This document shows, piece by piece, positions 4,530-26,226 of a stretch of DNA of 32,180 nt. Below the pieces are notes generated by a model. That model made no database searches. It had not been told where the DNA came from and was given only the letters and a program-made list of their open reading frames with translations. Location: assembly GCA_018222825.1 (NCBI GenBank), contig JAAEZO010000015.1, positions 1 to 32,180 on the forward strand. The letters are read 5' to 3'. The first letter of the stretch is position 1. Each line of letters begins with the position of its first letter. Both the position numbers and the translations under genes were made by a program. Source of the DNA: Gammaproteobacteria bacterium (GTDB taxonomy: Bacteria > Pseudomonadota > Gammaproteobacteria > Enterobacterales > Aeromonadaceae).

Positions 4530-5066
4530 TCAAAACCCCGACCCCGGCTGTTGCAGAAATGTCTGTTCTTCTGCCGTCGATGCCCGCCCCAGTATGGCGT
4601 TGCGATGAGGATAACGCCCGAAACGGGCGATAATCTCACGATGACGCAGCTCGAAGGCCAGGTTATCGGCGATGCCGTTTTTTTCGAACAGCGCCAGAGC
4701 AACATCGTGTACCTTGAGCGACTCGCTGTGCATCATCGGCATATACAAAAATACCCGTTGCTGGGCCGTTAACCCCCGCTCCGCCCCTGCAGTTATCGCC
4801 TCCTGAGCCAGCACCAGCGCCATGCCATCGGCGGCAAAGGCCTCGGGCCGGTCACGATACATATTGCGGGAAAACTGATCGAGTACGATGATCTCGGCTA
4901 ACCTCCCCTCTGCTCGAGTACGCCACTCAAACAGCTCTCCCAGGCAGGCCCGCCGGTGCAGGTCGCTAAAACGCCGGCGAATATCCTCATCCAGCGCTTT
5001 GCTCTTTTGCCACCACTGGGCCGGTGTCAGCTCTTCAAACCAGAATGTGAGTACCGATTGATACAT
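4530..5066 (-). CDS. DUF924 family protein
   Basis: The 178-aa soluble protein belongs to the DUF924 family (COG3803), a helical TPR-like fold of unknown biochemical function. The family signature is visible as VLDQFSRNMYRDRPEAFAAD around residues 60-80, and 'MPMMHSES' is also typical. The ATG at 5066 is chosen because AAGGAG lies 7-8 bases upstream; the ORF-track start seven codons earlier has no such site. The gene sits between the yjiH terminator (upstream, same strand) and the palindromic repeat, so it is likely transcribed alone. The final codons (QQPGSGF) run to the edge of the repeat region and may have been altered by it. Function unknown. Confidence 0.88.
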   Translation of the reverse strand: MYQSVLTFWFEELTPAQWWQKSKALDEDIRRRFSDLHRRACLGELFEWRTRAEGRLAEIIVLDQFSRNMYRDRPEAFAADGMALVLAQEAITAGAERGLTAQQRVFLYMPMMHSESLKVHDVALALFEKNGIADNLAFELRHREIIARFGRYPHRNAILGRASTAEEQTFLQQPGSGF

Positions 5067-24247: not shown

Positions 24248-24952
24248 TCAGATTTCCACCATTCGGCCGATATACTGGATGGGCCCGGTAGGCAGACCCG
24301 TCGGTGAGCCTCCGGCCTGTTCCAGGGTCAGCTCGAACAACTGATTCGGAGCCAGGGGCGGCAAGGTATCAAGCGGCACCCGCAGGCGTTGGCCCGGCTC
24401 CACCAGGCCGAGGGAAACAGGTCTGGTCCAGTCATCGCCCTTGGTCCAGAGCTCCAGCACCTGGTCCGCCGGCACTTCCACCGCAGCCAGGGGGATCAAC
24501 TGAATTTCACTGGGGTCGCGGGCCTGAACCAGCCAGCCCGGCGCCCTGTTTTCCGGTGCTGCCAGCACGACGATGTAGCGGGGCTCTGGCAAGGGACGAT
24601 ACACGACGACCGCGGCAAGCAACAAACTCATGGCCAGACTGGTGGCAGTCAGCCCCCGCCACAGCCCCAGCCGCTGCCACCAGCGGGCTGGCTCGGCTAC
24701 CGCCCTGGCCCGGGAAAGGGCATCCAGGCTGCGCTCGACCCGGGGCCACAGCCGGGGGGAAGGTGTTTGTGCCTCCGCCAGCCCGGTCAGTGGATGCAGT
24801 CGCTCTTCCCACTGTGCCACCGCCGCCTGCAACGGTTCATCGTGCTCCAGCCGCTGCTCCAGTCGTCGCCGTTGTTCGGCAGTCAAGGTGCCCAGCACAT
24901 ATTCCCCGGCCAGGGCATACCGTTCAGAATCGCCCCGCTCTCCCTCGTTCAT
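24248..24952 (-). CDS. RskA-type anti-sigma factor
   Basis: The 234-aa product has the anti-sigma-K architecture. A short cytosolic helical domain 'RYALAGEYVLGTLTAEQRRR' lies at the N-terminus, one transmembrane segment ('TATSLAMSLLLAAVVVY') sits near residue 105-122, and the rest is a periplasmic RskA domain ending 'PTGPIQYIGRMVEI'. It would hold the neighbouring sigma factor at the membrane until released, probably by proteolysis. The ATG overlaps the sigma stop codon in an ATGA arrangement and AGGGAG lies 8 bases upstream, so translation is likely coupled. A GTG three codons earlier is possible. No zinc-binding HxxxCxxC motif is visible, consistent with the RskA type. Confidence 0.9.
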   Translation of the reverse strand: MNEGERGDSERYALAGEYVLGTLTAEQRRRLEQRLEHDEPLQAAVAQWEERLHPLTGLAEAQTPSPRLWPRVERSLDALSRARAVAEPARWWQRLGLWRGLTATSLAMSLLLAAVVVYRPLPEPRYIVVLAAPENRAPGWLVQARDPSEIQLIPLAAVEVPADQVLELWTKGDDWTRPVSLGLVEPGQRLRVPLDTLPPLAPNQLFELTLEQAGGSPTGLPTGPIQYIGRMVEI

Positions 24953-25515
24953 GCCATGCACTCCCTCAGCACTATCAGACTGCGCCGTATCCAGGCTTTG
25001 ACCGTGCCCAGCGGCGCGTCCATCCGGTTGGCAATTTCATGATGAGTACAACCGTCTACATAAGCATGCAGAAGGCAATTTCGCCGTTCAGGCTCCAGCT
25101 GATCCAGGCAATGTTCAACCCGTTTGCCGTGATCATGCCAAGATTCCCCATCCCGGTTCTGCTGCCAGTGTTCGTATGACTGCCGGGTATCCAGAGCCGC
25201 AGCGCCGTGCTGATCCAGACCAAGTTCCCGCCCCCGGTTGCGCACCGTATTCAGGGCCAGATGCCGGGCCACACTGTAAATCCAGCCCCGGGCCGAGCCC
25301 CGGGCCGGGTCGAAGCTGTCGGCACGCAGCCAGATGTTGATCAGCGCATCGTGCACTATGTCTTCCGCCAGTGCGTGATCGCGCACGATGCGCAGCACCA
25401 CTCCCAGCAATCGCCCTCCCTCCTGTTCATACAGGGCCTGAAGGCCTTGGCGATCCTGACGGGCACAGGCCGCTAACGCGGCCTGGTAATCAAAATCCTG
25501 ATTGGGTTTTGTCAT
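24949..25515 (-). CDS. ECF sigma factor (SigK/RskA-associated type)
   Basis: The 188-aa product is an extracytoplasmic-function sigma factor. Region 2 is at about 15-85 ('LRIVRDHALAEDIVHDALIN' and 'ARGWIYSVARHLALNTVRNR') and region 4 at about 125-185 ('LEPERRNCLLHAYVDGCTHH' then 'APLGTVKAWIRRSL'). It lacks a C-terminal extension. The 4-base overlap with an RskA-type anti-sigma gene defines a standard pair. The ATG at 25515 has a weak ribosome site; an in-frame TTG at 25545 has a better AAGGG and would add ten residues. The same-strand DUF3455 gene lies 93 bp upstream and is a likely cotranscribed or target gene. Confidence 0.93.
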   Translation of the reverse strand: MTKPNQDFDYQAALAACARQDRQGLQALYEQEGGRLLGVVLRIVRDHALAEDIVHDALINIWLRADSFDPARGSARGWIYSVARHLALNTVRNRGRELGLDQHGAAALDTRQSYEHWQQNRDGESWHDHGKRVEHCLDQLEPERRNCLLHAYVDGCTHHEIANRMDAPLGTVKAWIRRSLIVLRECMA

Positions 25516-25569
25516 CGGTGCAGCACCATCCGCATTGGTCTTCAAACGAAGCCCTTCTTGTAATGTCGA

Positions 25570-25594
25570 GTGTAGACCACTACACCACGGATGG
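25570..25594 (-). promoter_or_regulatory. CATCCGT element and small hairpin before sigma gene
   Basis: On the minus strand CCATCCGT (from 25594) lies in the gap between DUF3455 and the sigma gene. The heptamer CATCCGT recurs upstream of DUF3455. A 6-bp inverted repeat GTGTAG-ACCA-CTACAC (25570-25585) follows directly. CCATCC resembles the -35 reported for SigK-type factors, as I recall it; a matching -10 is not clear. Confidence 0.35.
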
Positions 25595-25608
25595 CGCTGC
25601 GCGCTTCT

Positions 25609-26139
25609 TCAGCCGGCTTTCCAGAAAATATAATCGGCCTGGTATTTGACGATTTGACGTTCGCCCTTGTTGGCCTCGCTGCAGGCCATAGAGGGCGCCA
25701 CCCCACCCTGGGTATCCAGCCGCTGGATATAAGTGACACCGGTCATAGCCCCCTCTCCCATCGCCGGGTTGGCCTGTACCAGCTGAAAGGGAATATTACC
25801 TTCGCCCCCCGAAGCCACGGCCAGCTGAGTGCCGGTTACCTTAGATCCATCCATCGCCTCCCAAGTGGCCGGCGGCCCGAAATAACGACCCACCTGCTTG
25901 CCGCTGCTATCGTTCAGCGCCGCATCCGGCCCGGCAAATGCCCAAGCCAGCTCCCCAGGAGCATCGGGTTTGTCGCGGCATTCGTAGGTAATTTTCCCGA
26001 CTCCCACCGTTTCCAGCGCGACCTTGTGGCCTGCCGGCACCTGCATGCTTTCGGGCACCATGGCGTGGGCAAGGGAAGACAGGCCCAGCAGCAGGGTCGT
26101 GGCCAGTACCGGGGGCATTTTGAGCTGAATATTGTGCAT
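25609..26139 (-). CDS. DUF3455 family secreted protein
   Basis: The 176-aa product has a signal peptide (after MHNIQLKMPP, a hydrophobic VLATTLLLGLSSLAHA) and a mature domain of the DUF3455 family: 'VGKITYECRD', 'WAFAGPDAALND', 'VGRYFGPPATWEAMDGSKVT' and a C-terminal 'YQADYIFWKAG'. Members are secreted or periplasmic and of unknown function. They are often found beside ECF sigma/anti-sigma pairs, as here, which suggests a role in the envelope stress that the sigma senses. The start at 26139 has AAGGAG seven bases upstream; the track ORF adds 73 spurious residues. It is the first gene of a three-gene minus-strand set. Confidence 0.88.
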   Translation of the reverse strand: MHNIQLKMPPVLATTLLLGLSSLAHAMVPESMQVPAGHKVALETVGVGKITYECRDKPDAPGELAWAFAGPDAALNDSSGKQVGRYFGPPATWEAMDGSKVTGTQLAVASGGEGNIPFQLVQANPAMGEGAMTGVTYIQRLDTQGGVAPSMACSEANKGERQIVKYQADYIFWKAG

Positions 26140-26218
26140 GTCATATCTCCTTGTGACGAACGCTAGTATCAAGAGCGGCAACAGATGCCACCCTTGTACT
26201 ACCCGCCAGAGGGATAAA

Positions 26219-26226
26219 CGGATGCA
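26219..26226 (-). promoter_or_regulatory. CATCCGT element upstream of DUF3455 gene
   Basis: On the minus strand TGCATCCGT lies about 80 bases before the DUF3455 start codon. It shares CATCCGT with the site before the sigma gene. It is a candidate -35 of an ECF-dependent, autoregulated promoter; GGTAGTAC about 16 bases further on is a possible but unproven -10. Confidence 0.35.

Follow-up and report, generated by a model that had tools for sequence, protein, structure and literature searches.

The window, a stretch of 32,180 nucleotides beginning at position 1 of its contig, comes from a draft genome that belongs to the Zobellella group and contains three genes encoded in one direction on the minus strand. 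The first-pass annotation had placed a DUF3455 gene, an ECF sigma factor gene and an RskA-type anti-sigma gene here in one direction without naming the strand, and profile matches agreed with it at about the coordinates it gave. The first gene (25609 to 26139, minus strand) encodes a secreted DUF3455 protein of 176 aa, which matches PF11937 over all of its positions 1 to 157 of 157 (E = 5.3e-32, 111.8 bits, cut-off 25). It is preceded by the Shine-Dalgarno sequence AAGGAG at 26147 to 26152 (minus strand), and the signal peptide of its product ends at about AHA/MVP. Cys 54 and Cys 153 are invariant in an alignment of 47 sequences. According to an AF2 model (mean pLDDT 88), the protein is predicted with good confidence to fold as an all-beta barrel. 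Searched by fold, this model matched only weakly, to barrels of the cyclase/DUF3237 type; the best E was 6e-3 and TM among the closest reached 0.39, so that no function is claimed. No relatives of DUF3455 or of the anti-sigma factor were found by sequence search of solved structures.

The second gene (24949 to 25515, minus strand) encodes a SigK-like ECF sigma factor of 188 aa, counted from the ATG at 25515. A longer frame starting with TTG at 25545 is also open, and comparison with relatives indicates that the ATG is most likely the start. The protein matches the Pfam families Sigma70_r2 and r4_2, scores above the cut-off for PRK12537 and, when scanned as 198 aa against Pfam, shows regions 2 and 4 only, without region 1 or 3, as in ECF sigma factors. 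Its stop codon overlaps the start codon of the third gene (ATGA), suggesting translational coupling. This third gene (24248 to 24952, minus strand) encodes an RskA-type membrane anti-sigma factor (RskA_C, E = 7.4e-22, 78.5 bits, cut-off 29.4). The three genes are flanked upstream by recD, in the same direction, and downstream by an ABC1-family kinase gene that ends head-on. At the other end of the window, where the contig begins, GTGAGGT is repeated eight times in tandem within positions 1 to 57, a repeat that is perhaps the cause of the assembly break.

The conservation of this arrangement was examined in 84 non-duplicate DUF3455 loci, which come from Zobellella, Pseudomonas and Burkholderiales. 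In 63 of them DUF3455 is followed directly by sigma and anti-sigma, with identical order and strand in every case, and the same trio is found in more distant relatives of the order, whose DUF3455 proteins are 43-46% identical. DUF3455, sigma and anti-sigma thus form a real, conserved three-gene ECF module, apparently a unit for sensing stress. Within the 23 genomes of the Zobellella group, DUF3455 is present in only seven. In the closest relative, G054 (96% identity for recD and 93% for ABC1), the interval from recD to ABC1 contains none of the three, which indicates that the module was gained or lost as a unit; about 400 bp of unrelated sequence follow the recD stop codon in their place. Other states of the locus were also seen. 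A genome of the same order (G222) carries what appears to be a decaying module, in which a DUF3455 fragment with an internal stop almost adjoins a sigma fragment and no anti-sigma gene was found, and two Pseudomonas loci (L033 and L056) have, after about position 4900, a second and more divergent sigma/anti-sigma pair directly behind the first.

Alignment of the regions upstream of DUF3455 revealed a bipartite element, TGCATCC-N17-GTA, usually with GTAGTAC as its second half. In the window, its -35-like half TGCATCC occupies 26220 to 26226 and its -10-like half GTAGTAC, the GTA of which follows 17 nt after TGCATCC, occupies 26196 to 26202, both on the minus strand. The spacing is invariant in the 64 of 84 loci that have the element. 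These include 62 of the 63 loci with an adjacent sigma gene and 2 of the 21 without one (Fisher p = 1.2e-15, an optimistic value because the loci are phylogenetically related). The single sigma-bearing exception has GCGCATCC at the right spacing. The element was also present at all four order-level loci found later by a Pfam search, and at the same place in 7/7 genomes of the genus that carry DUF3455. The first-pass annotation had proposed a genome-wide search for its heptamer with a -10 at fixed distance; in the window's own genome, a search for the bipartite element gave one perfect match, at DUF3455, besides sites with one mismatch. Similarly, 13 of 16 Pseudomonas, Burkholderiales and Zobellella genomes contain the exact string at DUF3455 with at most two other matches. 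In two pattern searches, off-register controls with other spacings gave mostly scattered matches, and most of the extra exact sites examined in other genomes lie inside long open frames or have no clear gene start behind them. The exception is in Polaromonas CG_9.7, where TGCATCC-N17-GTAGT also occurs at about position 1501 of locus L156, on the minus strand, before a gene for a secreted DUF4394 protein, possibly a second type of target. With roughly one such element in each genome, DUF3455 is predicted to be the main target or the only one, and the SigK-like sigma factor most likely switches it on. Of the two roles suggested earlier for DUF3455, effector and sensor, the promoter data fit that of an effector, and DUF3455 is a predicted direct output of the module.

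Directly after the GTAGT box, where the transcript of DUF3455 is predicted to begin, lies a stem-loop of varied sequence (26170 to 26196, minus strand). Its mean folding z is -2.74 over 64 loci versus -0.04 in an upstream control stretch. Among 29 diverse sequences, covariation supports its five core pairs, and compensatory change was counted in 11 cells, a value reached in none of 500 shuffles. This leader may protect the 5' end of the transcript.

The region between DUF3455 and the sigma gene is organised differently. It contains an inverted repeat predicted to form a hairpin with a 13-bp stem, the arms of which are 55 nt apart. The left arm, GCAGCGCCATCCG, spans 25588 to 25600 and the right arm, CGGATGGTGCTGC, spans 25520 to 25532, both on the minus strand. 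The right arm covers GGATGG, the only Shine-Dalgarno candidate of the sigma gene, located 10 nt before its ATG and a modest candidate in itself. In seven genomes of the Zobellella group, 7 of the 13 pairs have changed on both sides, and the covariation score is 0.451 versus 0.292 in shuffles (0/500 as high), while slid registers do not exceed 0.223; this sample comprises seven genomes of one genus, and the stem is weaker in one of them, G045. The 3' half of the hairpin region includes a conserved TTCGTTTG(A/G)CTAC, and no Rfam family matches the region.

A de novo search of 58 intergenic regions upstream of sigma genes yielded the motif T-G/C-g-n-CTANNNT (12.07 bits versus at most 7.1 in shuffles), and its CTANNNT part recurs before the sigma gene throughout the set. 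In the window it corresponds to TACACT at 25569 to 25574 (minus strand), within the hairpin loop (TGGTCTACACT), a candidate -10 for a separate promoter of the sigma gene. With a C just before TANNNT and no clear -35, the CTANNNT element resembles the -10 of sigmaS-type promoters, a sigmaS/sigma70-like -10, and control by RpoS is a guess; the missing -35 also means that the element is possibly no promoter at all. Scanning for sigma-70 promoters gave no good candidate at the DUF3455 or the sigma site. In modelled transcripts, the probability that the sigma Shine-Dalgarno is unpaired was 0.00-0.10 in the long, read-through form versus 0.20-0.60 in the short form starting in the loop, with the same direction in 7/7 genomes, a comparison that is partly circular because loss of one arm must open the other.

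Several explanations of this region were weighed. The first-pass annotation had read the heptamer CATCCGT, found before DUF3455 (26218 to 26224) and before the sigma gene (25587 to 25593), as the mark of a shared ECF promoter through which the sigma factor directly autoregulates its own gene. Both copies exist, and an identical 7-mer before both genes would be expected from such a promoter. However, the word is not enriched in the window, where it occurs five times against 4.37 expected, and at least five copies were found in 46 of 100 shuffles. The copy before DUF3455 falls for the most part within the TGCATCC of the conserved promoter-like element, whereas the copy before the sigma gene, minus its last base, belongs to the left arm of the hairpin. 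Against the weight matrix of the element the latter scores -47.8, while true instances score at least 18.6 (median 37.5), and the matrix found nothing in any of the 63 DUF3455-sigma gaps. Moreover, elsewhere in the Zobellella group the corresponding stretch of the left arm reads CATCCA, CGTCCG, CGCCCG or CGCTCG, and the right arm has changed to match, so that the heptamer varies while the pairing is kept. Direct autoregulation of the sigma gene from the same type of ECF promoter as that of DUF3455 is therefore hardly credible, and the role assigned to the heptamer holds on the DUF3455 side only.

An inverted repeat that flanks a promoter-like element could also be a DNA operator, bound by a dimeric regulator of the enclosed sigma promoter. 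The arms are far apart for this, at the distance given above, and since they vary yet stay complementary, an RNA is expected rather than a sequence-specific operator, which makes this reading very unlikely. If the hairpin acts as RNA, it might be a regulated switch on sigma translation, such as a thermometer or a ligand- or protein-binding leader, instead of a fixed shield against read-through. The masking of the Shine-Dalgarno by a covarying stem and the conserved motif in its 3' half agree with a switch, but the lack of an Rfam match and the high stability that the model gives the long stem (MFE of the transcript -50 to -65 kcal/mol), a poor fit for a thermometer, make it unlikely. It is also conceivable, though we think it rather improbable, that the three genes form one operon transcribed from the ECF promoter alone, with indirect positive feedback, and that the hairpin only tunes read-through as a partial terminator, a processing site or a stabiliser of the mRNA. 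The shared strand and the short gap favour this, as does the frequency of hairpins in the DUF3455-sigma gaps (44/63, or 70%, versus 45% in shuffles). So do three order relatives (L161, L163 and L164), which have an intrinsic-terminator-like hairpin with a T-tract between the two genes, the sigma start lying about 30 nt further on. However, the Zobellella hairpin is not followed by a T-tract, its right arm sits on the Shine-Dalgarno, and a separate conserved CTANNNT element lies upstream of the sigma gene. In the Pseudomonas gaps, GC-rich hairpins often follow this element. As the barriers differ between genera, insulation of sigma from DUF3455 may be a common theme executed in different ways, and not one conserved device.

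The reading that we consider probable is an ECF module of the SigK/RskA type that serves one main output, and in which sigma and anti-sigma depend on a separate weak promoter and the hairpin masks read-through. RskA would retain the sigma factor at the membrane until an envelope or redox signal releases it. The freed sigma factor would then recognise the TGCATCC-N17-GTA element, which lies about 85 bp ahead of DUF3455, and drive strong expression of this gene from a transcript that would open with the possibly protective stem-loop. The sigma and anti-sigma genes would have a weak promoter of the CTANNNT type to themselves, inside the hairpin loop; its transcript would lack the left arm and leave the sigma Shine-Dalgarno accessible, whereas read-through from the DUF3455 promoter would carry both arms and be masked. 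Such masking would render DUF3455 inducible without runaway sigma synthesis. As the sigma gene has no ECF motif of its own, any autoregulation would proceed via read-through from the DUF3455 promoter, which the hairpin appears placed to limit. In IS10-type protection of transposase genes, inverted repeats mask the translation of read-through mRNA. The likeness, an open Shine-Dalgarno after a start inside and a masked one after a start outside, is an analogy of mechanism only, as no transposon is present at the DUF3455/sigma locus. We propose, more tentatively, that the sigma promoter is nested in the hairpin so that translation is confined to transcripts that begin in the loop, an IS10-like read-through filter in a chromosomal stress regulon.

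Among 13 solved relatives of the sigma factor, M. tuberculosis SigK (4NQW) was the best, over the length of the protein (E = 4.5e-22; next, 7.7e-13). The two disulfide cysteines of SigK, Cys133 and Cys183, align with Cys146, present in 63/63 sigma relatives, and Cys196, present in 62/62. The SigK-RskA system of M. tuberculosis belongs to groups ECF18/ECF19 and controls the secreted proteins MPT70/MPT83 (PMC7509140). The module described here shares with it these cysteines, an RskA_C anti-sigma factor and a secreted output, but differs in that the output is DUF3455, with about one predicted promoter per genome, and in having additional conserved cysteines (Cys 27 and Cys 157) and an intergenic RNA hairpin. 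By inspection, YALAGEYVLGTL near the N-terminus of the anti-sigma factor agrees with the helix 1 motif HTLAGAYALDAL of the AS19-1 anti-sigma group (PMC7406223). The module also resembles, by description, the Pseudomonas ECF18 systems and P. putida RpoT, in which a proteobacterial ECF18-type sigma factor has an adjacent anti-sigma factor; the neighbours given for ecf18 of P. syringae B728a are nhaA and a serine acetyltransferase gene, with no mention of DUF3455 (PMC3597554). DUF3455 together with a sigma factor was not found in titles or abstracts of the literature searched. As leads only, DUF3455 genes were up 20-fold in Delftia on soybean roots, in a report that contains no mention of an ECF or an anti-sigma factor (PMC7725335), and P. 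putida PP_3007, numbered next to the RpoT gene PP_3006, was up under nitrogen limitation (PMC7801951).

The locus illustrates how a short word that is repeated may belong to a promoter in one copy and to an RNA stem in the other. For a SigK-like sigma factor widespread in Pseudomonas and Burkholderiales, it provides a concrete predicted promoter, TGCATCC-N17-GTAGT, and a predicted regulon of little more than one gene, from which a reporter for the signal could be built, and a function of DUF3455 becomes testable. If the nested promoter is real, it would uncouple the strongest target of the sigma factor from the sigma factor's own feedback.
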